The notes beneath the pieces were generated by a model. The model searched no databases. It was not told where the DNA came from and worked only from the letters and a program-made list of their open reading frames with translations. From assembly GCF_003481705.1 (NCBI RefSeq), contig NZ_QULN01000001.1, positions 62,001-126,000 on the forward strand: a DNA stretch of 64,000 nt, read 5' to 3'. Shown one piece after another: positions 1,904-51,150 of this stretch. Made by a program: the position numbers and the translations under genes. Numbering within the stretch: position 1 is the first letter of the stretch; each line of letters starts with the position of its first letter. The DNA comes from Butyricicoccus sp. OM04-18BH (GTDB taxonomy: Bacteria; Bacillota; Clostridia; Oscillospirales; Butyricicoccaceae).

Positions 1904-2032
1904 ATAGGGGGTATCCAATACCCCCTATCTACAAAATCCGGTTCCGCAGAAACCGAATTTTGATACCCCCGGACGCGCCCCAAGGGCGCTGAGTCGAGGT
2001 ATAAAATGACCGGCAAAGCTGGTCATTTTATA
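1904..2032 (+). repeat. Hairpin-chain repeat family B, copy B1
   Basis: Occupies most of the 360-base gap between prfC and recR. Hairpins in order: HP1 (ATAGGGGGTA with TACCCCCTAT), HP2 (AAAAT-CGGTT with AACCG-ATTTT around the family loop CCGCAGA), linker GATACCCCC, HP3 (CGCCC with GGGCG), linker CTGAGTCGAGGTATA, and HP5 (ATAAAATGACC with GGTCATTTTAT around GGCAAAGCT). Both flanking genes are on the minus strand, so this copy is antisense to them, unlike B2-B5. A short GC hairpin with a run of T lies just upstream (about 1850-1888). Confidence 0.8.
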
Positions 2033-2066
2033 ATATTACACAATATACAGCAAGATTGAGAGCCGC

Positions 2067-2666
2067 CTACAGCTCCCGGCGGCCCTCGAGAGCGCGGGTG
2101 AGCGTGACCTCATCGACAAACTCGAGATGTCCGCCGACCGGAATGCCGTAGGCAAGGCGCGTGATTTTAATGTCGAACGGCTGGAGCAGGCGCGAGATAT
2201 ACATCGCGGTCGCTTCGCCCTCGGTGTCCGGATTGGTCGCGAGGATGACCTCCCGGGTGTCCTCGTCGGCGATGCGCTGCACCAGCTCGCGAATGCGGAT
2301 ATCGTCCGGGCCGACATGACCCATCGGCGAGAGCGTGCCGTGCAGCACATGGTACAGGCCGCGGTATTCCTTCGTGCGCTCGAAGGCGATCACGTCGCGC
2401 GGGTCTGCCACGACGCAGATGGTCTTCTGGTCGCGCGACTTGTCCGCGCAGATCGGGCACTCCTCGCTGTCCGTGAGGTTCTGACAGCGTTTGCAGGTGA
2501 AGGTCTTTTCCTTCGCCTCGCGGATGGCGCTCGCGAAGCGCTCCGCGTCCTCCTTTGGCATATCGAGCACATGGAACGCCAGACGCTGTGCGCTCTTCTG
2601 GCCGATGCCGGGCAGTCTGGCGAACTCCTCAATCAGCCGCTCGACCGGTGGTGCGAAGTAATCCAT
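2067..2666 (-). CDS. recR: Recombination mediator protein RecR
   Basis: DNA-binding clamp acting with RecF/RecO to load RecA at gaps. At 199 residues it has the normal family length: an N-terminal helix-hairpin-helix region (LPGIGQKSAQRL), a C4 zinc finger formed by C58, C61, C70 and C73, and a Toprim domain with EGEAT. Its ATG overlaps the ybaB stop by one base, so the two are translationally coupled in the conserved dnaX-ybaB-recR order of Gram-positive bacteria. Confidence 0.97.
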   Translation of the reverse strand: MDYFAPPVERLIEEFARLPGIGQKSAQRLAFHVLDMPKEDAERFASAIREAKEKTFTCKRCQNLTDSEECPICADKSRDQKTICVVADPRDVIAFERTKEYRGLYHVLHGTLSPMGHVGPDDIRIRELVQRIADEDTREVILATNPDTEGEATAMYISRLLQPFDIKITRLAYGIPVGGHLEFVDEVTLTRALEGRREL

Positions 2667-3019
2667 TACAGCAGGCCGCCCAGACCGCCGCCGAGGCCGC
2701 CCGTCAGTGCGGACATCTGGCTCTGCGACTTCTCGGTCGCCGCCTTGAGCGCCTCGTTGACCGCCGCGACAACGAGATCCTGAAGCATATCGATGTCGTC
2801 CGGATCGACAACATCCGGCTTGATCTCGATGCTCTTGAGCGTGGAGGTGCCGGTAACGACTGCGGTCACCATGCCGCCGCCCGCCGTGCCGGTGGTCTCC
2901 ATAACGGCGATCTCCTCCTGTGCCTTGAGCATATTCTCCTGCATCTTCTGCGCCTGCTTCATCATTGCCTGCATGTTCATGCCGCCGCCGAAGCCGCCGA
3001 AATTCTTACCCTTTGCCAT
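2666..3019 (-). CDS. ybaB: YbaB/EbfC family nucleoid-associated protein
   Basis: A small (117 residues) dimeric DNA-binding protein. The sequence shows a Gly-rich N-terminus (GGFGGGMN), a long Met/Gln-rich helix (MQAMMKQAQKMQENM) and the family core with IEIKPDVVDPDDIDMLQDLV. Located between dnaX (15 nt upstream) and recR (1-nt overlap), the canonical context. Its molecular role in nucleoid organisation is known for the family only in outline. Confidence 0.93.
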   Translation of the reverse strand: MAKGKNFGGFGGGMNMQAMMKQAQKMQENMLKAQEEIAVMETTGTAGGGMVTAVVTGTSTLKSIEIKPDVVDPDDIDMLQDLVVAAVNEALKAATEKSQSQMSALTGGLGGGLGGLL

Positions 3020-3033
3020 TTTAAGTGTCCTCC

Positions 3034-4665
3034 TTAAAGTGTCTTTATGTCAACGTCTAAATTCTTCGCATGGTCGATGAGTTCCTCTACCATGTCGTTT
3101 TTTTCCTGTATGATCTCGTCTCCCGCCTCACGCACGCGGACCTTGATTGGGCCGCCGTTCAGCTTCGCCGCCTGTTCCCGAATGACCGCGAGTGTCTCAT
3201 CCTTTTGCGCGAGGATATAAGTCATTCTGTCCTCGCAGAGGATGACGAGCGCGCCGTCCTCGAGCGCGCCCTTCGCGCCGAGCTTGATGTTCGTCAGTGC
3301 GCCGACGTTGATCTTGCCCATCAGGGCATCCAGCAGCCGCGCCCACTGCGGCCAGAGCGTCAGCGTCGGGCCGGCCGGTTTGCCCGGCTTCGCCTGCGGT
3401 GCCGGCTCCCCGTCGATCAGCGGCGGCGCGTCCTCGTCGCCCGGCGGCGGGGGTGCGTCCTCATCTCCCGGCGGAGGGGGCGCCATGCCGCCGCTCTGCG
3501 GCGTCTGCACGACCTGCACCGGCACGCCGTTTTTGAGCTTTTCCTCGAGCGCCTCGACGCGGCCGCCGAGCGTATCATAATTCTCCGCGCCCAGACTGCA
3601 CAGCCGCACGGCGCACAGCTCGGCCTCTACACGGCGGTTCGCCGCCGAGCGCATCCGGTCGAGCGAGTCCCCGATGATGCGGCTCCACGCGATAAGCGTC
3701 GAGGCCGCGAGGCCGTCGCACAGTCCCTGAAGCGTTTTCACCGTATACGCCGGCGAGATTAGCGCGGAAACATCAGTTCTGCTTGTCTTGACGAGCAGCG
3801 CGTCGCGTATCAGGCCGAGCATCTGATCAAATGCCGCCGCAAGGTCGCGGCCTGCGCTGTAATATTCCTCCAGCAGCGTCACCGCCGCCGCGAGATCGCC
3901 TGTCTTGAAGTGCTCCGCAAGATGAATGCCGTCATCCTGCCCCATCACGCCGAGCGCCGCCGTGACCGTCTCCTCGTCGACGGCGCCGGCCGCCGCTGCG
4001 CGGTCGAGCATGGACAGCGCGTCGCGCATCGCGCCGTCTGCGAGGCGGGCGATCAGCCGCGCCGCCCCCTCGGTCAGCTCGATACCTTCGCCTGCCGCGA
4101 CGTCGAGCAGACGCCGCGCGATGTCCTCCGCACCGATGCGGCGGAAGTCGAAGCGCTGACAGCGCGAAAGAATGGTCGCCGGGACCTTGTGCAGCTCGGT
4201 CGTGGCGAGGATGAACAGCACGTGCTCGGGCGGCTCCTCGAGCGTTTTCAGCAGCGCGTTGAACGCGCCGATCGAGAGCATATGCACCTCGTCGATGATG
4301 AACACGCGCTTTTTGACCTGCGCGGGCGTATAGCGCGTCTCGTCGCGCAGGTCGCGGATATTGTCGACGCCGTTGTTGGACGCCGCGTCGATCTCGGTCA
4401 CGTCGAGCACCGAGCCGTCCAGAATGCCGCGGCACGCGGCGCATTCGTTGCACGGGTCGCCGTTCACCGGATGCTCGCAGTTGACCGCCCGGGCGAGAAT
4501 TTTCGCGCAGGTCGTCTTGCCCGTGCCGCGCGTACCGGTGAACAGATACGCATGGCTGAGTCTGCCGCTCTGAAGCTGAGCGCGCAGCGTGTCGGTGACA
4601 TGCTGCTGTCCGATCACGTCCGCAAAGGTCTGCGGCCGCCATTTGCGGTATAAAGCCTGATACAA
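3034..4665 (-). CDS. dnaX: DNA polymerase III subunit gamma/tau
   Basis: Clamp-loader ATPase of the replisome. Walker A is GTRGTGKTT at residues 44-52, the zinc site is C63/C72/C75/C78, Walker B is DEVH near residue 125, and a sensor/arginine-finger region follows. A TTG start at 4665 is supported by the strong upstream GGAGGGAGG. A disordered linker near residues 395-425 carries two tandem PPPPGDEDA units before the short C-terminal tau domain. 543 residues is typical for Clostridia. A terminator-like hairpin (4695-4726) and the SRP RNA lie upstream, suggesting partial read-through from the RNA gene. Confidence 0.96.
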   Translation of the reverse strand: MYQALYRKWRPQTFADVIGQQHVTDTLRAQLQSGRLSHAYLFTGTRGTGKTTCAKILARAVNCEHPVNGDPCNECAACRGILDGSVLDVTEIDAASNNGVDNIRDLRDETRYTPAQVKKRVFIIDEVHMLSIGAFNALLKTLEEPPEHVLFILATTELHKVPATILSRCQRFDFRRIGAEDIARRLLDVAAGEGIELTEGAARLIARLADGAMRDALSMLDRAAAAGAVDEETVTAALGVMGQDDGIHLAEHFKTGDLAAAVTLLEEYYSAGRDLAAAFDQMLGLIRDALLVKTSRTDVSALISPAYTVKTLQGLCDGLAASTLIAWSRIIGDSLDRMRSAANRRVEAELCAVRLCSLGAENYDTLGGRVEALEEKLKNGVPVQVVQTPQSGGMAPPPPGDEDAPPPPGDEDAPPLIDGEPAPQAKPGKPAGPTLTLWPQWARLLDALMGKINVGALTNIKLGAKGALEDGALVILCEDRMTYILAQKDETLAVIREQAAKLNGGPIKVRVREAGDEIIQEKNDMVEELIDHAKNLDVDIKTL

Positions 4666-4694
4666 AGCGAAACCCTCCCTCCGCAGTTCCTCTC

Positions 4695-4726
4695 ATAAAA
4701 AAGAGACGGGCGTAAGCCCGCCTCAA
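4695..4726 (-). terminator. Rho-independent terminator or attenuator ahead of dnaX
   Basis: On the minus strand the hairpin GCGGGC-TTAC-GCCCG is followed by TCTCTTTTTT. It lies 30 nt upstream of the dnaX start and downstream of the SRP RNA, so it probably ends most SRP RNA transcripts while allowing some transcription into dnaX. Confidence 0.75.
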
Positions 4727-4789
4727 AGCGTTCTCTCGCGAACTTTGTCCGCACAGTTCAACCTCCGGTTCATTCAAGGTTGATAAGAA

Positions 4790-4963
4790 CCGCGTCTCCG
4801 ACGCGGCATAAAACTGCATCGCGGAGCGATGCAGCAAATCGCCCAGCTTTGCCGGGTGATTTGCTCCCCGACTCAGCCGCCCAGGGCGGCGTCATTCGGG
4901 TATCAAATCACGGTTTCTCCGGAACCGTGATTTGTATATAGGGGACTTTTGAAGTCCCCTATA
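4790..4963 (-). repeat. Hairpin-chain repeat family B, copy B2, with two extra hairpins
   Basis: Read on the minus strand, it starts 4 nt after the SRP RNA terminal stem. HP1 is TATAGGGGACTT with AGTCCCCTATA; HP2 is AAATCACGGTT with AACCGTGATTT around CCGGAGA; linker GATACCC; HP3 is GCCGCCC with GGGCGGC; linker TGAGTCGGGG; HP5 is AAATC-CCC with GGG-GATTT around GGCAAAGCT (core ends at 4836). Two more hairpins follow: CTGCATCG with CGATGCAG (4814-4834) and CCGCGTC with GACGCGG (4790-4806). It fills most of the 302-base gap before dnaX. Confidence 0.85.
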
Positions 4964-4967
4964 CTTT

Positions 4968-5272
4968 CGTTCAGTGCTCCACAAGACCGCACGCAGGCAA
5001 TTCGAAAACACACACCCGGCTGCCTTTCCGCATTTCGGACTCAAGATCGGCAGCTCTGCGGCACACGATGGTTTCTGCTTAATGCTGCTCGGTTCCCCGC
5101 CTGACATGGTTCACAGTCCTCCGTTGCGCAGTACCGGTCTCTCATCGTCCTGTGAGTGGCTGCCTCGCCGCATATGCGACCCTCTTTGTCTGCACGACCC
5201 CTGCTGAAGCGGATTGCAGGTTCAAGGCACCGCTAACGCCCCGGTCTGTGCGGCCTTGTGCAGCACTGAACG
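4968..5272 (-). ncRNA. ffs: Signal recognition particle RNA, large Bacillus type
   Basis: The reverse complement matches the B. subtilis scRNA from memory in both conserved parts. The Alu-domain side reads GGGGCGTTAGCGGTGCC, then GAACCTGCAATCCGCT. The S-domain side reads CTGCGCAACGGAGGA, then GAACCATGTCAGGC, GGGGAACC and AGCAGCATTAAG. The ends form a long terminal stem (CGTTCAGTGCT with AGCACTGAACG), which sets the approximate 305-nt limits; the mature ends may be trimmed. The place directly before dnaX-ybaB-recR is the conserved one. It works with Ffh in co-translational membrane targeting. The hairpin loop of helix 8 is not the usual GGAAGGAAGCAG form but GGGGAACCGAGCAG. Confidence 0.9.
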
Positions 5273-5355
5273 TTTTTCGGGAGGAGAGCTGCATTCGCGG
5301 CCCTCCGCCCGTCTGTATTTACTTTTCTGTGCCGGACTGTCCGGCATACCGAAGA

Positions 5356-7749
5356 TCAGCTCTCCGGGTCTCCCTCTGACGGATCGGGCGCCGGTTCGGG
5401 ATCGGGCGTCGGTGCAATGTTGCCGCCGTCGTCATCACCGCCGCTGCTGCTGCCGTCATCACCGCCGCTGCTGTCGCCGCCGTCACCGCTGTCGCCGTTT
5501 TCATAACTGCTGTCGCCGTTATCGGTCGAGTCGGTGCTGCTGTCGGTGTTCGAGCTGTCGTCGCTTTCCTCGTCGTCATACTCGTCGTAGTAGTCATCCA
5601 TGCCGCTCGTCTCGAAGTCGTACTTCTCCTCGATGTTTTCATGGCTGCATGTCTGCGTCGGAACCTTGTCCTTCCAGAAGCGGCCGGTCGCTGCACGTCC
5701 CGCCTCGCGGCAGGCGCCGGATGCCAACAGGCCGGTATCCATGCAGTAGGTCTCCTCGACGAAATCCTGCGGATGCGAGTCAAAGACAAGACCGCTGTCG
5801 TCGGCATGAACCTTTTCCATGACCTTGAGCCAGATCTCCGCCGCGTTTCGGCCATACAGGCCGTCCAGACGGTAGTTATGCTCATAGCCTACCCAGACCG
5901 CCGCAGAGTATTCCGGCGTTACGCCGCAGAACCAGATATCCGTGTTCGAGCTCGTGGTACCGGTCTTGCCCGCGGTCTCCACGCCGTCGATCTGAATGCC
6001 GTAGGCGGTACCGTGTGCGGTAACGTTCTGCAGACAGTCGAGCATATCATATACGGTATGGACGTTGGTAAAGCCCTTGTCGGTATAAGGAGTGTTTTCA
6101 AGAACGGTGTTGCCCTCGTTGTCGAGCACCTTCGTATAGGTGCGCGTACCGCCGAACACGCCGTCGTTGATGAAGGTAGAGTAGCCGCCAGCCATTTCGC
6201 GGACCGTCACGCCGTCGGTCAGCGCGCCGAGCGCCAGAGGCGCCAGAGCGATATCCGACTGGACTGTGCCGTCCTCGTTGGTACGGCTGCCGACCAGCTT
6301 GATGTCGAGCTGGTTGGTGAGGAAATCATAGGAAGCCTGCGGTGTCAGTGCGTTGAGCACCTGTACCGAGACGGTGTTGAGCGAGCGCGTAACGCCTTCC
6401 TTGATGGTCAGGGAGCGGCCGGTCGGGTACTTGCCGTCGTTCATCGGCCACGGCATACCGTCCTCGCCCTCGGAGAAGGCGCGGTCGTAGATCGTCGTGC
6501 TCGGAACGATGATGCCTGCATCCATCGCCGGGCCGTAGCTTGCCAGCGGCTTGAACGAGGAACCCGGCTGGCGGCGTGCATCGGTCGCAAAGGAGAACGA
6601 ACGGCTGAGCGTTTTCTGGCCGCGTCCGCCTGCGATCGCGACGATATCGCCCTGCTTGTCCGTGATGACCATGGCGCTTTCCGGCACTTCGCCGTACTTT
6701 TCCGTGTTCGGGAACGCGGAATCATCGGTATATACGCTGTCCAGAGCATCCTGAACCTTGGTATCAATGGTCGCATAAATCTTGAGGCCGCCGGAATATA
6801 CCATATTCTCTGCGACCAGCTCGGAATAACCCTTCTGCTCCTTCAGATCGCCTATGACGTCCTTGATGACCTCATCGGTGAAGTAGCTGTAGGTAGACTT
6901 GACGTCCTTCTGGTATTCCTCGTAGGGACGGTAGTTCAGCTGCTCGGAAACGGCCGCATTGTACTCGTCCTCGGTGATCATCTTCTGATCGAGCATCTGC
7001 GACAGAATGGTCTCCTGACGCGATTTTACTTTATCGGGATGGTTGTATACGTCGTAGATGGACGGATTGTTGGTCAGGCCGGCCAGAACAGCGCATTCCG
7101 CCAGATCGAGCTGCGAAACATCCTTGCCGAAGTAACGGTCCGCCGCGGTCTGCACGCCATAGCTGTTGTAGCCGAGGTAGATGGTGTTGAGGTACATGAC
7201 GAGGATGCGGTCCTTGTCGTCGATCTCCTTTTCGAGCGCAAAAGCACGAAAAATCTCGTTTACCTTGCGCTTAATAGAGTAATCCTTGTCCTCAGTGATG
7301 TTTTTGATGAGCTGCTGCGTGATCGTCGAGCCGCCGTACTGGTCGCCGCCGAGCACCCAGCCCTTGACCGCGCCGAGCGTGCGCCACCAGTCTACGCCGT
7401 GATGCTTGTAGAAGCGCTCGTCCTCGATGGCGACGACGGCGTTCTTGAGATTGTCCGGAATTTTGTCGCTGTCGACCCATTCGCGGTTCTCGCGGCCCTT
7501 GATGGTCTCATAAACGGCCTCCTCGCCTGTCTCCGCGTCCGTCGTATAGATGAACGAGTTGAGGTTCAGGCCGAGACCCTTGCTGATTTCGGAAGCAGTT
7601 TCCTTCGCGGACGGGTTGATGCTCGTATGAACATAGAACGCAAATGCAATGCCGCAGAAGCAGCCGCACAGCACGCCGACGAGCACTAACGTCAGCAGCA
7701 GGCGTCCGAAAAACCGTCCGATGACCGATCCATTTTTTCTTTTTGACAA
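5356..7749 (-). CDS. Class A penicillin-binding protein (transglycosylase/transpeptidase)
   Basis: Bifunctional peptidoglycan synthase anchored by one N-terminal membrane segment (about residues 12-37). The GT51 glycosyltransferase domain carries EDERFYKHHGVDWWR with the catalytic Glu. The transpeptidase domain has the SxxK motif in RQPGSSFKPL and the KTG box in AGKTGTTSSNTD. The C-terminus is a long low-complexity Asp/Ser/Gly-rich tail outside the cell. A TTG start at 7749 with AAGGAGG 8 nt upstream gives 797 residues. A promoter is seen at 7961-7989. It is a PBP1a/PBP1-like protein; the exact subfamily cannot be fixed here. Confidence 0.94.
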   Translation of the reverse strand: MSKRKNGSVIGRFFGRLLLTLVLVGVLCGCFCGIAFAFYVHTSINPSAKETASEISKGLGLNLNSFIYTTDAETGEEAVYETIKGRENREWVDSDKIPDNLKNAVVAIEDERFYKHHGVDWWRTLGAVKGWVLGGDQYGGSTITQQLIKNITEDKDYSIKRKVNEIFRAFALEKEIDDKDRILVMYLNTIYLGYNSYGVQTAADRYFGKDVSQLDLAECAVLAGLTNNPSIYDVYNHPDKVKSRQETILSQMLDQKMITEDEYNAAVSEQLNYRPYEEYQKDVKSTYSYFTDEVIKDVIGDLKEQKGYSELVAENMVYSGGLKIYATIDTKVQDALDSVYTDDSAFPNTEKYGEVPESAMVITDKQGDIVAIAGGRGQKTLSRSFSFATDARRQPGSSFKPLASYGPAMDAGIIVPSTTIYDRAFSEGEDGMPWPMNDGKYPTGRSLTIKEGVTRSLNTVSVQVLNALTPQASYDFLTNQLDIKLVGSRTNEDGTVQSDIALAPLALGALTDGVTVREMAGGYSTFINDGVFGGTRTYTKVLDNEGNTVLENTPYTDKGFTNVHTVYDMLDCLQNVTAHGTAYGIQIDGVETAGKTGTTSSNTDIWFCGVTPEYSAAVWVGYEHNYRLDGLYGRNAAEIWLKVMEKVHADDSGLVFDSHPQDFVEETYCMDTGLLASGACREAGRAATGRFWKDKVPTQTCSHENIEEKYDFETSGMDDYYDEYDDEESDDSSNTDSSTDSTDNGDSSYENGDSGDGGDSSGGDDGSSSGGDDDGGNIAPTPDPEPAPDPSEGDPES

Positions 7750-8101
7750 TTCGGTATCCTCCTTGCCCGGCAGCCGAAGGCCGCAGGGTATGCCCGGCAG
7801 AATGCGCACGGGCAGCTGTCATTTACCTGTACAGGTACGGACGTTTTCACCGCCCGTTTTGTTCCCGCACGGCTGAAAAAACGCCCGCAGAATGAAATAT
7901 CCCCATTTTCGTCCCTGTGCCGGGACAGAGCGGGAATACAGTATTATAGCGGTCTATGCCATTATAACACACAAGAGCCGAAATGCCAAATTATTTTTAC
8001 AGAACTTCGCGGAATAGACAAAAATTTTGTGGGAATACTCAAATCACGCAGTCTCTCTCTTGTCTATTTTAGGAATTACATCTGTAACGGAGGTTTTGTC
8101 A
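7750..8101. other. Intergenic region between divergent pbp and small membrane protein gene
   Basis: About 350 bases. It holds the minus-strand pbp promoter (7961-7989) and, just before 8102, the ribosome site GGAGG of the plus-strand gene. I see no RNA gene or repeat family in it. Confidence 0.6.
7961..7989 (-). promoter_or_regulatory. Sigma-A promoter of the class A PBP gene
   Basis: On the minus strand TTGGCA, exactly 17 nt, then TATAAT. It leaves a leader of about 200 nt before the chosen TTG start. Confidence 0.7.
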
Positions 8102-8425
8102 ATGATACAGGGATTTTTTCTGCTCGCACGCCGTCAGGCGCGGCAGCGCGCCGCCGCGCTCCTGATCTTTCTGCTCCTTGCCGCCGTCATGCTCGTCCTT
8201 GCCGTGCGCGCCGTCCGTGTGCCTGCCGCCGTTCCCGCAGACGCCGCTTCGCTCGTCGCCGGTACGGACGGCACGCACCTGACCATCTCGCAGAACGGCG
8301 AGGTCATCCTCACGACGGCGATCGATGTGCGCACGCTGCCGAGTGCCGACCGGGAAGCGCTCCGCCGCGGCATCACGCTGCAAAGCGAGACCGAGCTGAC
8401 GCAGCTGCTCGAGGACTACTCGTGA
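8102..8425 (+). CDS. Small single-pass membrane protein, BofC C-terminal-like
   Basis: 107 residues starting at an ATG with GGAGG 8 nt upstream. A basic N-terminus (LARRQARQR) precedes one membrane segment (about residues 17-38), giving an outside C-terminal domain of some 65 residues. The ending ISQNGEVILTT, then LPSADREALRRGI and SETELTQLLEDYS resembles the short C-terminal domain of BofC (a forespore protease regulator) that occurs as small stand-alone proteins in Clostridia; this is recognition by pattern only. Converges on pdaA with 7 nt between stops. Confidence 0.6.
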   Translation: MIQGFFLLARRQARQRAAALLIFLLLAAVMLVLAVRAVRVPAAVPADAASLVAGTDGTHLTISQNGEVILTTAIDVRTLPSADREALRRGITLQSETELTQLLEDYS

Positions 8426-8432
8426 CGCACCT

Positions 8433-9251
8433 TCATTCCGCCTTTTCGCCTGCGAGCTCCTCGAGCGAGGCGAAGCGGTAGCCGAGCGCCTCCCACTTTG
8501 CGAGCAGCTCATCGAGGATGCGCGCGTTGGTCGCGCTCGTCGAGTGCAGCAGCACGACCGCGCCCGGATGGATGCGCGGCACGAGCTTGGAAAACGCCTG
8601 CTCATCGGTCGGCTGATCGTCGGTATACCAGTCCACATAGGCGAGCGACCAGAAGATCGTGCGGTAGCCGAGTTTCTGCGCCATGGCGAGATTGCTCTCG
8701 CTGAATTTCCCCTGCGGCGGACGGTAGAATTTCTTCATCTCCTCGCCCGTGAGTTCCCGGTATTTGTCCGCAAGGCCGTCAAGCTCCGCCGAAAACGACG
8801 CTTCGTCCTGTATCGCGGACATATCCGGGTGGTGCAGCGTGTGATTGCCGACGATGTGTCCCTCCTGCACCATGCGGAGCACGAGCTCGGGCGCGGTATC
8901 GATATAGTTGCCGACGACGAAAAAGCAGGCCGGTGCGCTGTGCTTTTTGAGCGCGTCCAGAATCGCTGCTGTGCAGCCGTTCTCATATCCGGCGTCAAAC
9001 GTCAGATAAATAACCTTTTCCGCCGGATCGCCCACATAATACGCATCCCACTGCCGCAGCTCTCCGGCGGAGACGTTGCCTTCGGGCTGCTGCCCCTCCG
9101 CGCGGAACGACAGTCCCCAGTTTCCGTCCGCCGCTGCGGTCTGCTCGGTCTTTCCCTGCGGGAACATCATGAAAAGCGCCGCGACGACCGCAAAAGCCGC
9201 CGCTGCCGCCGCGACACGGCGCAGCATGGAGCGCGTGATGGTGATGAACAT
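8433..9251 (-). CDS. pdaA: Polysaccharide deacetylase, probable muramic delta-lactam biosynthesis PdaA
   Basis: NodB-type metal-dependent deacetylase of 272 residues with an N-terminal signal/anchor segment (about residues 10-30). TFDAGYENG carries the catalytic Asp, HTLHHPD the metal-binding His pair, and YRPPQGKFSE the downstream conserved motif. In PdaA this activity removes the acetyl group from muramic acid so that delta-lactam can form in the spore cortex. The phrase VIYLTFDAGYENG is characteristic of PdaA rather than of chitin deacetylases. Presence points to a spore former. Confidence 0.85.
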   Translation of the reverse strand: MFITITRSMLRRVAAAAAAFAVVAALFMMFPQGKTEQTAAADGNWGLSFRAEGQQPEGNVSAGELRQWDAYYVGDPAEKVIYLTFDAGYENGCTAAILDALKKHSAPACFFVVGNYIDTAPELVLRMVQEGHIVGNHTLHHPDMSAIQDEASFSAELDGLADKYRELTGEEMKKFYRPPQGKFSESNLAMAQKLGYRTIFWSLAYVDWYTDDQPTDEQAFSKLVPRIHPGAVVLLHSTSATNARILDELLAKWEALGYRFASLEELAGEKAE

Positions 9252-9366: not shown

Positions 9367-9412
9367 AGAAAAATAAAGCAGTATTCACACCTGCATACAA
9401 AGGAGGATCTCT

Positions 9413-31358: not shown

Positions 31359-31503
31359 CCAGGGGGGACGCTGTCCCCCCTGGATACGTTTTCGGTTCCG
31401 GAGAAACCGAAAACGATACCCCCCTCTCGTCCGCACAGCGGACGAGGCCGCGCCGCCGTGGCGCGGGCAGAGGTATAAAAGTCCGGCAGAGCTGGACTTT
31501 TAT
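31359..31503 (+). repeat. Hairpin-chain repeat family B, copy B3
   Basis: Begins 3 nt after the potD stop. HP1 CCAGGGGGGAC with GTCCCCCCTGG; ATAC; HP2 GTTTTCGGTT with AACCGAAAAC around CCGGAGA; GATACCCCCC; HP3 CTCGTCCGC with GCGGACGAG; HP4 GCCGCGCC with GGCGCGGGC; linker AGAGGTATA; HP5 ATAAAAGTCC with GGACTTTTAT around GGCAGAGCT. Confidence 0.9.
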
Positions 31504-31594
31504 GGGGAATTTGATGCGGCGCTCTGCGAAGCGCCTGTCCTGCCTGTTTTGCCGAAGGCAAAATGCGGCAGGAGAACGCGCCCGAAGGGCGCGA
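31504..31594 (+). repeat. Further hairpins joining B3 to A2
   Basis: Three more stem-loops follow B3 without spacer genes: GGCGCT with AGCGCC (about 31518-31535), CCTGCC-TTTTGCC with GGCAAAA-GGCAGG (about 31538-31572) and GCGCCC with GGGCGC (about 31578-31592). Together with B3 and A2 the potD-zntA gap (496 bases) is an almost unbroken run of about 14 hairpins. Confidence 0.7.
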
Positions 31595-31820
31595 AAAAGG
31601 CACGCCGTCGGCGTGCCTTTTCGTTTAATAGAATTTGCTTTGCAAATTCCAGCCCGTAGGCCTCTAACCTTGAAAATATTAAATGAGAGCAAATCCGGGG
31701 GCGTGTACCTCGGATTTTTGACTTTGAGAGGGAGAAAGTTTTCGCATGGGAACTTTCGGACGTCCGTGTTCTGCGAAGTCAGAACACACTTACCGGCAGA
31801 ACATGAGTTCTGCCGGTAAG
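31595..31820 (+). repeat. Hairpin-chain repeat family A, copy A2
   Basis: Hairpins: AAGGCACGCC with GGCGTGCCTT (terminator-like, followed by TTTCG); linker with AATAG; GAATTTGC with GCAAATTC; a 41-nt stretch special to this copy; AAATCCG with CGGATTT; GAAAGTT with AACTTTC; GTGTTCTG with CAGAACAC; CTTACCGGCAGAAC with GTTCTGCCGGTAAG. Ends 31 nt before the stop of the minus-strand metal ATPase gene. Confidence 0.88.
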
Positions 31821-31851: not shown

Positions 31852-34824
31852 TCAGTCGAACTTCTTGTACAGTATGCGGACCGAGTTGAGTACGCACAGC
31901 ATCGCGACGCCGGTATCTGCGAACACCGCGAGCCACATGGAGGCGTGGTTGGTAAGGCCGAGCACCATGACGAGCAGCTTTACCGCGAGGGCGAAGATGA
32001 TGTTCTCCTTGGAAACGATGTTCGCGCTGCGTGCGATATTGACCGAGGCCGGGACGGAGCTGAGGTCGGCCTTCATGAACACGACGTCCGCCGCCTCGAT
32101 GGCGGCATCGGCGCCGCTGCCCATCGCCGCGCCGACGTCCGCGCCTGCGAGTACGGGTGCATCATTGATGCCGTCGCCGACGAACATGACCGCGCCGTTC
32201 TTCTCACGGATCTCATTCAGTGCAGCCAGCTTATCCTGCGGCAGCAGGCGTGCGTGCACCTCGTCGATGCCGATCGACTGCGCGACCGCATCCGCGCTCG
32301 CCTGACCGTCGCCGGTCAGCATGGCCGTGCGCAGGCCCTGCGCCTTCATGCGGCCGATGGCCTGCTTCGCGTCCGGCTTTACGGTATCCGCGATGTCGAT
32401 ATGACCGAGGAACCTGCCGTCGAGCGCCAGCAGCACCTCGGTGCTGCCCTGCGTGCCGTGGTAGCCGGAAAGATCAATATTGCTGTGCTCCATGAGCTTT
32501 ACGTTGCCGCAGAGCACGGTTTTTCCCTCGACCGATGCAATGACGCCCTCACCGGCCAGCTCGCGGATGTTTTCTACCGTGCTATTGCCGTGCTCGGCGC
32601 CGCGCTCCTCATAGGCGGTGAGGATGGAACGCGCGATCGGGTGGGTGGACGCGCTCTCGCACTTCGCCGCAAGCCACAGCAGCTCGCCTTCGTTCAGCGG
32701 AACGCCCTTCGCCGGGACGATATTCTGAACGACGAAGTTGCCCTTTGTGATGGTGCCGGTCTTATCCATGACGATGGTCTTTACGTTATTGAGCGCCTCG
32801 AGCGACGCGCCGCCCTTGAACAGGATGCCGCGCCTCGAGCCTGCGCCAATGCCGGAGAAGTAGGTCAGCGGCACGCTGAGCACCAGCGCGCACGGGCACG
32901 AGATAACGAGGAAGGTCATGGCGGTGTATACCCATTTATGCCACTCGCCGGTGAACAGGCTGGGCACGATAGCGGTCAGCAGCGCGATCGCGACGACCGC
33001 CGGGGTGTAGACACGGGAGAAGCGGGTGATAAAGCGGTCGATCTTCGGCTTGCGCGCCGCAGCATTTTCCACGCTGTCCAGGATGCGCTGCACCATGCTC
33101 TCCGCAAGCACATGCGTGACGCGGATCTTCACGGCGCCGTCGGTGTTGACGCAGCCGGAAGTCACCCTGTCGCCGACGGTCACGCGGACCGGGACCGGCT
33201 CGCCTGTGACAGCCGAGGTATCCAGACGGGTCTCGCCCTCGCTCACCTCGCCGTCGAGCGGCACGCGGTCGCCCGGACGGACGAGCACGATGTCGCCCTC
33301 CGCCGCGTCCTCTGCCGGGATGACCGAAATGCTTCCGTCCGCCCCGACAAGGTTTACCGTCTCCGGACGCAGGTCGATGGCGTCCATGATCTGTCTGCGC
33401 GAGCGGTCTACGGCGCGGTCCTCGAAGTATTCGCCGACGCGGTAGAACAGCATGACGCCGACCGCCTCGTCGAACGAGCCGACCGCCCATGCGCCGATGG
33501 TCGCGACAGCCATGAGGAAGTTCTCGTCAAACACCTGACCGCGTCCGATGTTTTTGATCGCGGTCAGCAGAACGTGGCGGCCGAGCAGCAGATACGCCGC
33601 GACCATCAGAACGATTTTGACCGCCGTCACCGGAATGACCAGACCCGCGACAAAGAGCGCCGCGCCGATCAGCATTTCCGCGAGAGGGTGACTGCCTTCC
33701 TCGTCCTCCTGCTCCTCCTCGGGGGCGATGACCTTGACCTCGCTCTCGATATTCGAGCAGATTTCGCGGATTTTCGGGAGCAGAGCGTCCGGGTTTTCGC
33801 CCTTGACGCGCAGCTGTTTGGTTTCGTAGACGAGCACGCAGTCGTCGATGCCGTCGAGCTGGCTGATCTGGTGCTGCATCTTGGCGGCGCAGTGGGCGCA
33901 GCCGAGGTTTTCGAGCGTGTAGACACGCTGGCCGTTTTTGCCGTAGTGTCTGGGCGCGGGAGCAATGACCTTCGCCTCGCTCTCGATGCCCGAGCAAATC
34001 TCGCGGATTTTCGGGAGCAGGGCATCCGGGTTTTCGCCGGTCACGCGCAGCTGCTTGGTTTCAAAGACAAGCACGCAGTCCTCCACGCCGTCCAGTTCGC
34101 TGATGCGCTCCTCCATCTTCGCCGCGCAGTGTGCACAGCCGACATTCTGAAGCGTATAAACGCGCTTGACGCTGTGGCCCCCTGCGGCGTGCTCGTGATG
34201 ATGGTGGTGGTGATGCTCGTGGTCATGTCCGCAGCAGCAGTCATCATCATCATCGTGATGGTGGTGATGATGCTCGTGCTCGTGGTCGTGGCCGCAGCAG
34301 CAGTCGTCGTCATCATCGTGATGGTGGTGATGGTGATGCTCGTGGTCGTGACCGCAGCAGCAGTCGTCGTCATCGTCGTGATGGTGGTGATGATGCTCGT
34401 GCTCGTGGTCGTGACCGCAGCAGCAGTCGTCGTCATCGTCATGGTGGTGATGATGCTCGTGCTCGTGGCCGCAGCAGCAGTCATCGTTATCATCGTGGTG
34501 GTGGTGATGGTGTTCGTGCTCGTGGTCGTGACCGCAGCAGCAGTCGTCGTCATCGTCATGGTGATGGTGTTCGTGCTCGTGGTCGTGGTCGTGACCGCAG
34601 CAGCAGTCGTCGTCATCGTCGTGGTGGTGGTGATGGTGATGCTCATGGTCGTGACCGCAGCAGCAGTCGTCATCATCGTCGTGATGGTGATGATGCTCGT
34701 GCTCATGGTCGTGGCCGCAGCAGCAGTCGTCATCATCGTGGTGGTGATGGTGGTGATGGTGTTCGTGCGCTTCTTCTATTTCCTGTGCGTCCGCAGCGGC
34801 TTTTTTCTTCTCCTCTTCTGCCAT
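31852..34824 (-). CDS. P1B-type heavy-metal ATPase (Zn/Cd/Pb class) with His/Asp/Cys repeat N-terminus
   Basis: 990-residue efflux pump. Residues about 20-215 hold nine units of the form D4-5 CCCG H(D/E)HEH H4-8, giving 27 Cys and over 80 His. Two almost identical HMA domains follow, each with GCAHCAAKM (CAHC near 228 and 309). The pump core has the membrane CPC motif C643-P-C645 (SCPCALVLSVP), the phosphorylated D687 (DKTGTITKG), GDGINDAPVL, and in the last helices FADTGVAML with the Asp typical of ZntA/CadA. Start ATG with AAGGAGG. Expression is probably controlled by the SmtB-like operator upstream. No regulator gene is adjacent. Confidence 0.93.
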   Translation of the reverse strand: MAEEEKKKAAADAQEIEEAHEHHHHHHHHDDDDCCCGHDHEHEHHHHHDDDDDCCCGHDHEHHHHHHHDDDDDCCCGHDHDHEHEHHHHDDDDDCCCGHDHEHEHHHHHHDDNDDCCCGHEHEHHHHHDDDDDCCCGHDHEHEHHHHHHDDDDDCCCGHDHEHHHHHHHDDDDDCCCGHDHEHEHHHHHHDDDDDCCCGHDHEHHHHHHHEHAAGGHSVKRVYTLQNVGCAHCAAKMEERISELDGVEDCVLVFETKQLRVTGENPDALLPKIREICSGIESEAKVIAPAPRHYGKNGQRVYTLENLGCAHCAAKMQHQISQLDGIDDCVLVYETKQLRVKGENPDALLPKIREICSNIESEVKVIAPEEEQEDEEGSHPLAEMLIGAALFVAGLVIPVTAVKIVLMVAAYLLLGRHVLLTAIKNIGRGQVFDENFLMAVATIGAWAVGSFDEAVGVMLFYRVGEYFEDRAVDRSRRQIMDAIDLRPETVNLVGADGSISVIPAEDAAEGDIVLVRPGDRVPLDGEVSEGETRLDTSAVTGEPVPVRVTVGDRVTSGCVNTDGAVKIRVTHVLAESMVQRILDSVENAAARKPKIDRFITRFSRVYTPAVVAIALLTAIVPSLFTGEWHKWVYTAMTFLVISCPCALVLSVPLTYFSGIGAGSRRGILFKGGASLEALNNVKTIVMDKTGTITKGNFVVQNIVPAKGVPLNEGELLWLAAKCESASTHPIARSILTAYEERGAEHGNSTVENIRELAGEGVIASVEGKTVLCGNVKLMEHSNIDLSGYHGTQGSTEVLLALDGRFLGHIDIADTVKPDAKQAIGRMKAQGLRTAMLTGDGQASADAVAQSIGIDEVHARLLPQDKLAALNEIREKNGAVMFVGDGINDAPVLAGADVGAAMGSGADAAIEAADVVFMKADLSSVPASVNIARSANIVSKENIIFALAVKLLVMVLGLTNHASMWLAVFADTGVAMLCVLNSVRILYKKFD
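34195..34770 (-). repeat. In-frame tandem repeat coding the His/Asp/Cys array
   Basis: Nine units of about 54-63 nt inside the metal ATPase gene, each built of GAC/GAT runs, TGCTGCTGCGG(C/T) and CAC/CAT runs. Unit lengths alternate (18-21 codons), consistent with expansion and contraction by slippage or unequal recombination. Sequence assemblers may miscount the units. Confidence 0.9.
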
Positions 34825-36831: not shown

Positions 36832-36984
36832 TTATGCAAAGATACCGGAAAATTCCGGGAATGTTTTTCCAAACCGCCGTTTTTTTACCCTGAACGCAGT
36901 TTTTGTCTGTTTGCGCCCGGTTTTTTTCGGCGTTTTGCCTGCTTGCCTGCACCGCGCTTTTGTGCTACCATAATACCAGACAGA

Positions 36985-37090
36985 TTTCCTGCAACTGACG
37001 GACAAGGTGGAGCGCAAACCACCGGGGAGCAGGAAGTTCCGTATCAGAGACAGGTGCGCCTGTACCTGTTTTCATGCCGACCGTCTGGGC
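36985..37090 (+). ncRNA. ZTP (pfl) riboswitch
   Basis: Matches the ZTP aptamer from memory: P1 TTCCTGC with GCAGGAA, the conserved AACTGACGGACA, P2 AGGTGG with ACCACC, then the invariant CCGGGGAGC, a variable region with the hairpin ACAGGTGC/GTACCTGT, and the 3' domain GCCGACCGTCTGGGC whose CCGNCTGGGC is diagnostic. It binds ZTP/ZMP, the signal of 10-formyl-tetrahydrofolate shortage. The gene behind it, pflB, gave the motif its original name. Confidence 0.9.
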
Positions 37091-37129
37091 AGTGTCGTGA
37101 TTATTTTTAACGCGATGCTGTCCTTTTTT
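37087..37129 (+). terminator. Riboswitch-controlled terminator of pflB
   Basis: The arm 37087-37099 (GGGCAGTGTCGTG) can form a 13-bp stem with 37111-37123 (CGCGATGCTGTCC) followed by six T. The first arm contains the GGGC of the ZTP aptamer 3' domain, so ligand-bound aptamer would prevent the terminator: an ON switch. GCTGTCC-TTTT also pairs with AAAAGGGACAGC near 37163, a possible alternative fold. Confidence 0.8.
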
Positions 37130-39422: not shown

Positions 39423-39568
39423 CTAAGGGGGACGCTGTCCCCCTTAGATACGCCCCCGGTTCCTTGCGAAACCGGGGACGATAACCCCCTCTCGTCCGCA
39501 CGGCGGACGAGGCCGCGCCGCCGCGGCGCGGGCAGCGGTATGGTTCCGCGGCAAAGCCGTGGAACCAT
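39423..39568 (+). repeat. Hairpin-chain repeat family B, copy B4
   Basis: Begins 5 nt after the pflB stop and fills the pflB-pflA gap. HP1 CTAAGGGGGAC with GTCCCCCTTAG; ATAC; HP2 CCCCGGTT with AACCGGGG (loop CCTTGCGA differs); GATAACCCC; HP3 CTCGTCCGC with GCGGACGAG; HP4 GCCGCGCC with GGCGCGGGC; linker AGCGGT; HP5 ATGGTTCC-CGG with CCG-GGAACCAT around CAAAG. Its position inside an operon means it need not act as a full terminator. Confidence 0.9.
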
Positions 39569-40376: not shown

Positions 40377-40555
40377 GCCGCGCGGCAGCGCGCATAAAAT
40401 AGCGTTTGCTGCGCAAACGCAAAAAAACCGAGGACATGCGCCTCGGTTTTTTTACTTTAGGAGGGAGAAAGTTTCTGTATAGGAACTTTCGGACGACTCG
40501 TGTTTTGCGAAGTCAAAACACAGATTGTCGGAAAAACGAAGTTTTTCGACAGTCT
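40377..40555 (+). repeat. Hairpin-chain repeat family A, copy A3
   Basis: Hairpins: GCCGCGCGGCAGCGCGC region; linker AAAATAG; GCGTTTGC with GCAAACGC; AAACCGAGG with CCTCGGTTT; GAAAGTT with AACTTTC; GTGTTTTG with CAAAACAC; TGTCGGAAAAAC with GTTTTTCGACA. The last hairpin ends 6 nt before the stop codon of the minus-strand glgP. Confidence 0.9.
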
Positions 40556-44719: not shown

Positions 44720-44746
44720 ATTATACTCGTTTCCTGTATCCTGCAA
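44720..44746 (-). promoter_or_regulatory. Possible internal promoter upstream of glgA
   Basis: On the minus strand TTGCAG, 15 nt, TATAAT. The spacer is short. A GC-rich hairpin (AGTGCGCCGGG with CCGGCGCACT) follows in the leader, and two smaller ones precede the glgA ribosome site. Confidence 0.35.
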
Positions 44747-44823
44747 TATAGGGATTTTTCACGAACATTTCTCCTGCCGGAGCCGTTTTTTCGCCCGTCC
44801 CCTGTACATTTTACAGAAAACAC

Positions 44824-45951: not shown

Positions 45952-45966
45952 CCTGCGTTCTCCCCC

Positions 45967-47178
45967 TTACTCGGCGTCCGGAATATCTTCGTCAGCCATT
46001 TCCTTTGCGGCGAGCTTGACGTTCTCGCCGATGCGGACGTTCTCCGCGACAACGGCAACGCCCCACTTGTCTACGTCGCATTCGGACGGGCCTGCGCCGA
46101 TCGATGCGCCCTTTGCGATGACCGCGCCAGAGGCGACGATGGCATAGCGCACGTTCGCGCCCTCCTCAACGACTGCGCCCGGCATCAGAATGGAGTATTC
46201 GACGTTTGCGTTCTTCGCGACCTTGACGTCCGAGAACAGGACCGACTCGGAAACGTTGCCCGCGATCTCGCAGCCCTCGCTCAGCAGAGTATGCTGTACC
46301 TTCGCGCCCTTTGCGGTGAAGTGCGGAGGCGAACCGGTGGTGCGGCCGTAGATCTTCCAGCTGTCGTCCGACAGGTTGAGGCCGGAATTCGGAGAGAGCA
46401 GATCCATGTTCGCCTCCCACAGGCTCTCGATCGTGCCGACGTCCTTCCAGTAGCCCTCGAAGCGATAGGAGACCATCTTTTCGCCGTTTGCGAGCATCGC
46501 CGGGATGATGTCCTTGCCGAAGTCGTTGGAGGACTTCGAGTTTGCCTCATCCTCCTCAAGATACTTGCGCAGCTTCTTCCATGAGAAGATGTAGATGCCC
46601 ATGGAGGCGAGCGTGGACTTCGGCTCCTTCGGCTTCTCCTCGAACTCGTAGATCGTGCCGTCCGGCTTGCAGTTCATGATGCCGAAGCGGGAAGCCTCGG
46701 AGAGCGGAACATCGAGCACCGCGATAGTCGCGTCCGCGCCGGTCTCCTTGTGCTGGCGGAGCATCTTGTTGTAGTCCATCTTGTAGATGTGGTCGCCGGA
46801 CAGGATGAGAACATATTCCGGATCATAATCCGCGATAAACGGGATATTCTGATAAATTGCGTTCGCCGTACCCTTGTACCACTCCGAAGCCTTGCCGCGC
46901 TGATACGGAGGCAGGACGCTGACGCCGCCGCGCAGGCGGTCGAGGTCCCACGTCTGGCCCGAGCCGATGTAGGCGTTGAGCACGTGCGGCTCGTACTGGG
47001 TCAGCACGCCGACCGTGTCGATGCCGGAGTTGATGCAGTTGGAAAGCGGAAAATCAATAATGCGGTATTTGCCGCCGAACGGTACAGCCGGCTTTGCAAC
47101 ATTCTTGGTCAGAACATACAGGCGGCTGCCCTGGCCGCCTGCCAGAAGCATAGCGACGCATTCCTTTTTACGGTACAT
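45967..47178 (-). CDS. glgC: Glucose-1-phosphate adenylyltransferase, catalytic subunit
   Basis: Makes ADP-glucose from ATP and glucose-1-phosphate. 403 residues with the intact loop [20 protein letters not shown], the [20 protein letters not shown] motif, the active-site region [11 protein letters not shown] and FEEKPKEP. C-terminal beta-helix repeats. AAAGGAGAGG ribosome site. Second gene of the operon. Confidence 0.97.
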
Positions 47179-47217
47179 TTTACCTCTCCTTTTTGCCTTT
47201 ATCTGTATAAATAAATT

Positions 47218-49479: not shown

Positions 49480-49597
49480 ACTGCATCTCTCCCTTATTTT
49501 CTCTGCCAGAAACAGTGCATTTCGGAAACATTTTCCGTTTTTTCCATTTTCTCAGCAGTTCCCTTTTCCTCTTTAGACATATCCAGTATAACGCAAT

Positions 49598-49647
49598 AAA
49601 AAAGAAAAGTCCAGCAATTTTACACAATCGCCGGACTTTTCTTTTTT
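49598..49647 (-). terminator. Terminator between cinA and glgB
   Basis: AAAAGTCC-GC and GC-GGACTTTT pair around a 15-nt loop, and the minus-strand 3' side continues CTTTTTT. Ends cinA transcription; the glg operon starts beyond it. Confidence 0.8.
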
Positions 49648-49717
49648 ATTTTTTGTTCGCTTTACACAGTGTTTGCCGGGAAATGTCGAGAAAACGTACA
49701 AATCACCGGCAAAGTGT

Positions 49718-50947
49718 TTATAAAATATGACGACGGATCAGATCGAGCGCCGTGCTCGCCGCCTGCATTCGGACGCGGTCGCGGCCGAAGGAGGAATTGG
49801 TCTTGCGCGTGAAGAACTTTCCGTCGTACCACACGCTGATATAGACCAGACCGGCCGGCTTGTCCTCGGTGCCGCCGCCCGGGCCCGCGATACCCGTGAT
49901 ACCCACGCCGATATCCGCGCCGAGCGCCTTCGCCACGCCCGCCGCCATCTGCTCTGCGGTCTCTGCGGAGACTGCGCCGACCGTGTCGAGCGTTTCCTTC
50001 CTGACGCCGAGCACGTTCATCTTGACCTCGTTGGCGTAGGAGCACACGCCGCCCAGATAATAGTCCGAACAGCCGGGAACATCCGTGATGCGCTTGGAGA
50101 GCAGGCCGCCCGTGCAGCTTTCCGCGACAGCGAGCTTGAGGCCCTTCTCGCGCAGGCCGTCGCCGACGACCTGTTCGAGCGAGTCGACATCCACGCCGTA
50201 TACGTCGTCGCCGAGCAGCTCGACGATCTCTCTGACCACCGGCTCGAGCAGCTTCTCGCACTCCTCGGTCGTGTCCGCCTTGGCGGTGACGCGCGCGAAG
50301 CACTCGGACGTCTTTGCGTAAGGCGCGATGGTCGGGTTCTTGCTCTTCTCCATCATGTCGTGCAGGATGTGCTCCATGCTGCTCTCGCCCAGACCGAATA
50401 CGCGGATGTTGTGCGAAACGATGCAGCCGCCCGCCAGCTTGTACAGATACGGCATCGCGCATTCCTTCCACATCGGGTTGCACTCACGCGGAGGACCGGG
50501 CAGCATGAGAACGTGCTTGCCGTAGGCCTCAAAGGCGCAGCCGGGCGCCGTGCCCCAGAGATTGGTGAACACGGTGCAGCCCTCGGGCAGCCACGCCTGT
50601 TTCTCGTTGTTTTTGGTCATTTCACGGCCGATCTTGTTGAAAAACTCGGTCAGACGGTCGAGCGACGGCTGATGCAGCGCCATTTTCTTGCCGAAAACCG
50701 TCGCAAGGGTCTCCTTGGTCAGATCGTCGAGCGTCGGCCCGAGGCCGCCGGTGGTGATGATGATGTCCGCACGGTCGCGCGCGGTCTCAATGACATGACG
50801 CAGACGGGCCGGGTTGTCGCCGACGACCGTCTGGTAAAATACGTTGATGCCCAGCTCGGAAAGACCCTGCGAGATCAGCTGCGCATCCGTGTTCACGATG
50901 TCACCGAGCAGGATCTCCGTTCCGACTGCGATAAGTTCTGCGTTCAA
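49718..50947 (-). CDS. cinA: CinA-family protein (nicotinamide-nucleotide amidase/competence-damage protein)
   Basis: 409 residues from a TTG with GAAGGAG 8 nt upstream. The N-terminal MoCF-like domain (ELIAVGTEILLGDIVNTDAQ, TTGGLGPTLDDLTK) is followed by a C-terminal PncC domain (LAVAESCTGGLLSKRITD, then VPGCSDYYLGG and VGITGIAGPGGGTEDKP). PncC domains recycle NMN to NaMN; the full-length protein is competence-linked in some Gram-positives. Downstream of thiI with repeat B5 between. Confidence 0.94.
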   Translation of the reverse strand: MNAELIAVGTEILLGDIVNTDAQLISQGLSELGINVFYQTVVGDNPARLRHVIETARDRADIIITTGGLGPTLDDLTKETLATVFGKKMALHQPSLDRLTEFFNKIGREMTKNNEKQAWLPEGCTVFTNLWGTAPGCAFEAYGKHVLMLPGPPRECNPMWKECAMPYLYKLAGGCIVSHNIRVFGLGESSMEHILHDMMEKSKNPTIAPYAKTSECFARVTAKADTTEECEKLLEPVVREIVELLGDDVYGVDVDSLEQVVGDGLREKGLKLAVAESCTGGLLSKRITDVPGCSDYYLGGVCSYANEVKMNVLGVRKETLDTVGAVSAETAEQMAAGVAKALGADIGVGITGIAGPGGGTEDKPAGLVYISVWYDGKFFTRKTNSSFGRDRVRMQAASTALDLIRRHIL

Positions 50948-51005
50948 TGTAATTTCTCCTTCGTGGGTATCGGCAGCGCGTGCACGCACTGCCATATGAT
51001 TCTCG

Positions 51006-51150
51006 ATAAAAGCGCAGCTCTGCCGCGCTTTTATTCCGCTGCCCGCGCCGCGGCGGCGCGGCCTCGTCCGCCGTGCGGACGAGAGGAGGTTATCGTCTCC
51101 GGTTTCTTCGGAACCGGAGACGTATCTAAGGGGGACAGCGTCCCCCTTAG
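51006..51150 (-). repeat. Hairpin-chain repeat family B, copy B5
   Basis: Read on the minus strand it starts 7 nt after the thiI stop. HP1 CTAAGGGGGAC with GTCCCCCTTAG; ATAC; HP2 GTCTCCGGTT with AACCGGAGAC around CCGAAGA; GATAACC; HP3 CTCGTCCGC with GCGGACGAG; HP4 GCCGCGCC with GGCGCGGGC; linker AGCGGA; HP5 ATAAAAGCGC with GCGCTTTTAT around GGCAGAGCT. Confidence 0.9.

Follow-up and report, generated by a model that had tools for sequence, protein, structure and literature searches.

Dispersed chains of covarying hairpins in Agathobaculum and Butyricicoccus genomes suggest a mosaic palindromic repeat family maintained largely by DNA copying

Do paired changes in the stems of a repeated hairpin structure reflect selection on an RNA, or can they come from copying of the DNA itself? 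The question is raised by a stretch of 64,000 nucleotides (nt) from Butyricicoccus sp. OM04-18BH (contig NZ_QULN01000001.1, positions 62,001 to 126,000; hereafter the window, in whose coordinates features are given), which carries five dispersed copies of a chain of hairpins: c1 at 1904..2032 (+ strand), c2 at 4836..4963 (-), c3 at 31359..31503 (+), c4 at 39423..39568 (+) and c5 at 51006..51150 (-). These five copies form one family. We lean, if only just, towards the view that it is a new family of mosaic palindromic repeats, interspersed and non-coding, similar in kind to bacterial interspersed mosaic elements (BIMEs) and BOX elements, that would be kept palindromic largely by copying at the DNA level.

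All five copies lie where the original prediction had placed them and fold as it described, with z-scores of -7.1 to -8.6 against 200 dinucleotide shuffles per copy, none of which folded as well. The chain runs from hairpin 1 (HP1) over the linker ATAC to HP2, then to a closing stem in which GATACCC pairs with GGGGTAT around one or two inner hairpins, and on through GGGGTATC to HP5, often with HP6 and HP7 behind it; four to seven near-perfect hairpins are thus strung together. When window copies are aligned with relatives, HP1 opens with TATAGGGG.. or CTAAGGGG.., the HP2 apex is usually GTTCC..GAAAC, and the HP5 apex is either GGCRRAGC or a member of a second apex class. The HP2 core is exact in four of the five window copies, with outer stems that are wholly different, as had been claimed. 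The order of four to five hairpins first proposed covers two architectures, type A with one inner hairpin (c1, c2) and type B with two (c3, c4, c5), and the chain is often longer. HP6 and HP7 extend c2 (4790..4835, -), an extra hairpin, GGCGCT..AGCGCC, occupies the HP7 place behind c3 (31518..31535, +), and an HP7-like hairpin lies between c5 and cinA (50972..50993, -).

A covariance model, a check that the original prediction had proposed, was built from 22 type-A copies, namely c1, c2 and 20 copies from genome contigs. It matched c1 and c2 at E 1.5e-25 and 3e-27, and it found the three window copies absent from it, c3 (E 8e-14), c4 (1e-8) and c5 (3e-11). Standard pairs fill 91.9% of 1094 pair cells in the 22 copies, compared with 81.9% in shuffles, and covariation is 0.268 against 0.110, with none of 500 shuffles as high; relatedness among the copies remains in this control. 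The way the 22 were gathered accounts for part of the conservation of their HP2 core: 20 of them came through a pattern search on that core, which returned 40 stretches including, by eye, some unrelated chance matches; later copies, taken with the model, include HP2-core variants. Covariation and fold stability, both beyond shuffles, and the model matches to unseen copies rule out a chance repeat or an artefact, in line with the earlier statement that this is no random repeat.

Searches of related genomes yielded 109 and 73 model matches, of which 89 and 60 were kept; of the 33 dropped, 32 were on the opposite strand and overlapped copies that were kept, and one was an incomplete tandem copy (at locus L205). 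The resulting 149 copies come from best-scoring or most similar places plus fetched stretches, so that the set favours strong matches. Within it, the linkers ATAC, GATA and GATAMCC are present in 137, 136 and 126 copies. The HP2 apex was recognised in 105; at HP5, 82 have GGCRRAGC and 32 the other apex pattern. The 75 nt past HP5 hold at least one more hairpin in 134 of 148 copies and at least two in 69; in shuffled stretches these counts were 16 and 0 of 148. The element thus often extends beyond what was first reported. By eye, a module of about 44 nt (AAGGTGAATTG-hairpin-CAAGAG..) is nested in element hairpins in either orientation, in the inner hairpin region at L001, L003, L008 and L013 and, turned the other way, in the HP5 loop at L029 and L298, as if hairpin loops were insertion sites.

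Where pairing of a sense-strand RNA is under selection, G·U is expected to be better tolerated than A·C. The stems of the element do not show this tolerance. HP2, anchored on its apex and read with no pairing filter, gave 812 Watson-Crick, 19 A·C, 3 G·U and 6 other among 840 pairs; HP1 in its best register gave 1568, 23, 14 and 32, and HP5 677, 28, 10 and 7 once its fixed apex position, a G·U in 54 of 84 copies, was left out. Summed over the three hairpins, again without that position, G·U numbers 27 and A·C 70. Counted raw over all 615 hairpins, fixed positions included, the figures are 91 and 102; over 496 unique hairpins in distinct contexts, fixed positions out, they are 30 G·U, 58 A·C (44 AC and 14 CA) and 27 other of 5639 pairs. 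Terminator-like hairpins, collected in the same way but with a slightly tighter threshold and with duplicates kept, gave 51 G·U and 27 A·C (Fisher p 9e-5). The signal recognition particle (SRP) RNA of the same genomes has 251 G·U and 4 A·C in 1913 cells, a reading on its consensus structure that is not like for like, and passed through the hairpin finder it gave 218 Watson-Crick, 2 G·U and 27 other, too few pairs for comparison. A G·U that is rarer than A·C in near-perfect stems looks unlike RNA selection on the sense strand. The A·C excess equals G·T on the other strand; the template strand may be the one that folds, the numbers being small.

Comparison of orthologous sites suggests that hairpins change as whole units, not letter by letter. 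Parsing succeeded for 117 of the 149 copies and gave 87 ortholog pairs, in several of which one module is replaced and the rest nearly identical. Thus, L192 and L240 have identical HP1-HP3 and different HP5-HP7; L138, L193 and L205 have HP1 and the HP2 stem in common and differ in HP3 and HP5; L172, L177 and L179 have almost the same HP1-HP3 and an HP5 that differs, also in its apex; and the main difference between L142 and L242 is, by eye, the HP2 stem. Likewise, HP6, HP7 and the ribosome-binding site are nearly alike in the type-B loci L072 and L073 and in L090, which is type A without HP2. Across 146 orthologous comparisons of HP1 or HP2, both arms had changed, with Watson-Crick pairing in both species, in 204 of 249 changed pairs; the other 45 were non-Watson-Crick in one species (13 G·U, 24 A·C, 8 other). 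On the consensus structure of the SRP RNA from the same genomes, G·U occurs in 1417 of 3037 changed pair comparisons. The original prediction had concluded that compensatory change means pairing kept by selection, a conclusion that, as stated, finds no support in the 3 G·U against 19 A·C in HP2 or in the replacement of whole hairpins without passage via G·U. Paired changes together with hairpin replacement are easier to reconcile with DNA copying, be it template switching or recombination, than with an RNA that slowly gathered compensatory changes.

The element also comes and goes at orthologous sites. At thiI-cinA, 19 of 20 loci were readable: five bear the element, seven have a bare spacer of 19-25 nt, four have longer spacers without the element, two have another repeat and one has what seems to be an HP1 remnant. 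At pflB-pflA, the site of c4, it is present in 1 of 20 loci, and L096 and L101 start with something like a broken HP1. By eye, many pflB-pflA and thiI-cinA gaps of other species (L077, L082, L092-L107) contain more palindrome-rich repeats, for example CAAGAGGGAGA..TCTCCCTCTTG. At SRP-dnaX, the site of c2, 24 of 25 loci showed the RNA, eight followed by type A, 11 by a related type C and five by no full element; one of these five, L310, has a short hairpin. Type C, assigned by eye at L297, L298, L303, L304, L306, L308, L309, L311, L313, L315 and L317, has a different 5' half (hairpins TTCGATTGAAA.. and GATGTACCG..) joined to HP2-core and HP5 modules similar to those of type A; its members L306 and L313 are degenerate.

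Placement relative to genes is tight. In the window, c3, c4 and c5 start 3, 5 and 7 nt past the stops of potD, pflB and thiI, which bears out the spacing of 3-7 nt in the original prediction; c2 agrees as well if counted from CTGAAC, 5 nt upstream of it, its start being 23 nt past the end of the Rfam match to the large SRP RNA gene (RF01854; 4987..5253, -). By eye, CTGAAC is common to most relatives. Copy c1 is antisense to both of its flanking genes, prfC (111-1706, -) and recR (2067-2666, -); the gene downstream of c3 is convergent, and c5 lies between thiI and cinA. Among the 149 copies, with genes called by our own codon-usage gene caller, the nearest called upstream gene is on the copy's own strand in 133; 108 copies start within -10..+20 nt of the upstream stop and 73 of them at 3-8 nt. 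The distance is -4 in 16 copies, which means that a TAG inside HP1 itself ends the gene. Eight copies lie behind SRP RNA. The call at c5 is wrong, an antisense open reading frame of 862 codons overlapping thiI, so that c5 is tallied as having no near stop. Flanks, given relative to the copy, are (+,+) in 120 copies, (-,-) in 6, (+,-) in 7 and (-,+) in 7, with nine at contig ends; sense exceeds antisense between same-strand genes by 120 to 6 (p 1e-28, shared descent ignored, the 149 copies making up 75 site groups). Where both flanks were called, 126 of 140 copies lie between same-strand genes, compared with 342 of 503 background gaps of at least 20 nt from the window and 40 fetched loci. From this placement, the copies are probably transcribed, inside the transcripts of their neighbours.

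Such placement recalls the suggestion of a structured 3' untranslated region or processing element, an RNA held by selection on sense-strand pairing. Sense orientation straight after stop codons is what that account would lead one to expect, as are the strong covariation, the very stable folds, the persistence of an element behind the SRP RNA in 19 of 24 genomes and the fixed G·U in the HP5 apex (54 of 84 copies). Outside that apex, however, the balance of G·U to A·C runs the wrong way in every hairpin (HP2 3/19, HP5 10/28, HP1 14/23) and is opposite to that of terminator-like hairpins (51 to 27); whole hairpins are replaced between orthologs; and the element is missing at many orthologous sites. 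We regard this account as unlikely. Strong structure and a mostly sense placement at gene 3' ends survive from the original suggestion, and no Rfam family matched at threshold; the inference from compensatory change to selection on pairing is not supported as stated.

In the mosaic-repeat reading that we favour, new or altered hairpins would arise by DNA-level copying, through replication template switching within a hairpin or, alternatively, through recombination with other copies by way of the conserved linkers. Copying of this kind would keep the arms complementary without compensatory evolution at the RNA level. With less confidence, we suggest that the transcribed chain could shield the 3' end of the upstream cistron and could weaken coupling to the next gene, as has been reported or proposed for BIME and BOX elements.

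Several points weigh against this reading. The orientation bias of 120 to 6 means that strand matters, which copying of palindromes alone fails to explain and a transcript-level role would; it calls for either an effect on the transcript or a mechanism that inserts copies in one direction. Copying cannot explain the tight placement after stop codons either, for which a partial reason may be that a short gap leaves room only between the stop and the ribosome-binding site. That apices and linkers are conserved implies selection or an enzyme that recognises them, and retention at the SRP site may reflect function. As for the data, ortholog pairs are not phylogenetically independent, so that their counts describe and prove no rate; the hairpin finder behind the 204 of 249 paired changes demands near-perfect stems, so that mismatched stems are under-counted; and template switching is read from differences between orthologous sites. 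Identical HP2 arms at non-orthologous sites are found in 12 of 554 same-genome pairs and 59 of 6134 pairs between genomes, and identical HP5 arms in 10 of 536 and 86 of 5703. This same-genome donor signal is weak, and recombination among copies accordingly stays a proposal. A small pool of shuffled hairpins was considered as the source and finds no support, stems being diverse and same-genome donors few.

Two further accounts also involve copying of the DNA. In one, the chains would be neutral palindromes that decay and are renewed, stay perfect solely through template-switch mutation, have no role and do not actively spread. The mechanism is a published one (PMC8794818), and near-perfect stems without G·U bias, paired changes and the 71 distinct HP2 arms among 117 copies are all consistent with it. 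Neutrality is hard to square with apices, linkers and order conserved over many species, or with the orientation and stop-codon spacing, and we judge this account improbable. The other goes further and is offered tentatively, as a possibility we rate as doubtful: a new type of mobile hairpin system that sets chains of palindromes behind gene ends in operons, resident prophage included, and renews them hairpin by hairpin through DNA copying, with stems turning over faster than flanking genes while linkers, apices and order persist. Under this second account, the constrained strand may be the template strand, which would point to a single-stranded DNA substrate and a putative enzyme reading the apex and linker motifs.

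Copies within prophage are indeed present. At L001 three copies stand between head genes of a prophage (PHROGs assigns portal and major head protein), at 4621-4733, 6071-6190 and 8392-8569 (-) and on the same strand as the genes; L146, from A. desmolans, has the same three and a fourth nearby. The element can thus enter or persist in acquired DNA. A prophage copy compared with 50,697 phage records gave no match. At L205 (1512-1795) two elements stand in tandem, the second starting behind the first, ending at the contig end and preceded by a near copy of the last bases of the upstream gene.

Could the chains be intrinsic terminators or attenuators? HP5 is often AAAAG..CTTTT, and a stem followed by at least six T in 8 nt occurs within HP1-HP5 in 18 of 149 copies and in the next 75 nt in 17 of 149. 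Past the HP5 apex, the longest T run in the 112 copies with that apex reaches 6 in one copy and 5 in 27, and does not exceed 4 in 84. In the window and, by eye, in 19 of 19 element-bearing relatives, the element behind the SRP gene is itself followed by a terminator-like hairpin with a T-run, and most copies lie between same-strand genes, prophage head genes included. A terminator role is unlikely for most copies on these patterns and was rejected for them; as an explanation of the family it seems to us highly improbable.

Equally remote, in our estimation, is an element of the repetitive extragenic palindromic (REP) or BIME type itself, perhaps moved by a Y1 transposase of the REP-associated tyrosine transposase (RAYT) or IS200/IS605 kind. 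Intergenic mosaic hairpin repeats with an A·C excess, hence G·T on the complementary strand, would suit it, as would the GACG that 101 of 149 copies have next to the inner hairpin; on the complementary strand it reads CGTC and recalls the CGTC-tagged REPs described in PMC3733652. In the model, the GAC of GACG falls in helix 4, where 89.4% of cells form pairs, whereas the tags of REPs stay unpaired, and chains of several hairpins are not 20-40 bp units; the stretch may still be an echo of CGTC-tagged REPs. Read on the complementary strand, the HP1-HP2 linker is GTAT in 136 copies, GTAG in 5 and neither in 8; GTAG on either strand occurs anywhere in 27 of 149, and the GTAG tag that REPs carry unpaired at the foot of the hairpin is missing apart from a few copies. 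The Y1 transposase domain PF01797 exceeds its cut-off in only 5 of 31 element-bearing genomes (G004, G013, G018, G025, G051) and was not found in the other 26. A link to Y1 transposases was rejected as a general rule, although many genomes are drafts, in which a missing match is no proof of absence. Among the copies listed, no terminal inverted repeats were seen by eye: starts are TATAGGGG or CTAAGGGG, ends are HP5 or later hairpins, and the 3' limit varies. Nor was a target site duplication seen by eye between filled and empty thiI-cinA and SRP-dnaX sites, where relatives are about 80-90% alike. An integron attC-like site was considered for the placement at stop codons and dropped on account of the wide spacing of the copies; no search for integrases was made.

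How far does the family reach? At E<=1e-4 the model matches 31 of the 87 genomes searched in the family to which G004 belongs; G004 is the genome with Butyricicoccus faecihominis locus L010. In an even sample of the order, 13 of 295 genomes have matches at E<=1e-6, ten of them known already; the other three, G139, G167 and G217, lie outside the 87 family genomes. By eye, L323 (G139) and L324 (G217) keep the linkers and the closing stem and have a different HP2 apex. Sixteen genomes searched singly gave from at least 5 to at least 43 matches each, opposite-strand matches included, with 150 scored of 678 to 1669 first-look candidates. Among the genomes compared, the window itself is nearest to Agathobaculum butyriciproducens (G001) at thiI (89%) and pflB (90%), while at cinA and dnaX other genomes are nearest (86%, versus 83-84% for G001). 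Judged by these matches, the chains are a repeat of gut bacteria of the Agathobaculum/Butyricicoccus group, the window included.

The window contains other features near the copies. A second dispersed repeat family (GGGAGAAAGTTTC..GGAACTTTCGGAC..) has four copies, at 1-52, 31690-31788, 40423-40521 and 58850-58948, which are 65-90% alike to the reference copy; one shares the intergenic region of c3. A ZMP/ZTP riboswitch lies upstream of pflB at 36981-37097 (Rfam, E 2e-6). The heavy-metal P-type ATPase gene at 31852-34824 (-) has an array of repeats of about 60-63 nt within its 5' part (34072-34818). Elsewhere, a putative RNA gene upstream of L174, L178 and L180, with a similar flank at L207, was set aside: the stretch has no Rfam match at gathering score, and the L180 sequence looks like a terminator-like hairpin.

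Covariation is widely taken as proof of functional RNA. A family that covaries strongly and yet shows signs that its hairpins are replaced at the DNA level offers a natural test of how to separate RNA selection from DNA copying. In a group of gut butyrate producers, it also adds a dense set of repeats, limited to that lineage, between genes on the same strand, one of them between the SRP RNA and its likely terminator, and the effect of such repeats on expression is directly measurable.

How, finally, do the chains compare with what is known? In Rfam release 15, the five copies have no match at E<=1 in a scan of the whole window, so that no family reaches threshold; in lax scans of L042, a relative, and of the c3 region, matches stayed at 15.8-19.9 bits, where the gathering scores are 42-114. 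Among the titles listed for open-licence PMC papers on Butyricicoccus, Faecalibacterium and Agathobaculum repeats and in broader searches, none points to a description of the family; the original prediction likewise knew of no published name. The bcr1 element of the Bacillus cereus group, about 150 bp long, is an interspersed repeat specific to that group and has a predicted fold. Compared by description only, it is of similar size and likewise confined to a group, in a different host; we know of no hairpin-by-hairpin replacement in bcr1. REPs, according to PMC3733652, are 20-40 bp long with an unpaired GTAG or CGTC tag; the GTAG ones are often near a RAYT gene, and the CGTC ones are apparently without a dedicated transposase. 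Hairpin chains are also palindromic, extragenic and mosaic, with GACG/CGTC in 101 of 149 copies, but they consist of 4-7 hairpins joined by ATAC and GATA linkers, with the GAC paired in the model. The BOX elements of Streptococcus pneumoniae are, according to PMC3049150, small modular intergenic repeats with extensive secondary structure that are thought to be non-autonomous; they likely affect genes co-transcribed with them and are over-represented between convergent genes. The chains resemble them in being small, modular, intergenic and structured, but lie mostly between same-strand genes, in sense and often 3-8 nt past stops. BOX modules are boxA, boxB and boxC, to which the chains are likened by description only, not by sequence; it is in kind, not by homology, that dispersed, structured, non-coding copies missing at orthologous sites in relatives are BOX-like. 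For the proposed mechanism, the closest parallel is template switching, which, as set out in PMC8794818, can create and maintain perfect hairpins, mending them in one step; with one arm serving as the template for the other, it produces multi-base compensatory changes in the genes of rRNA and other RNAs. That study used ancestral reconstruction, whereas the evidence here consists of differences between orthologous sites of a dispersed repeat; what the two have in common is perfect stems and paired changes of several bases.

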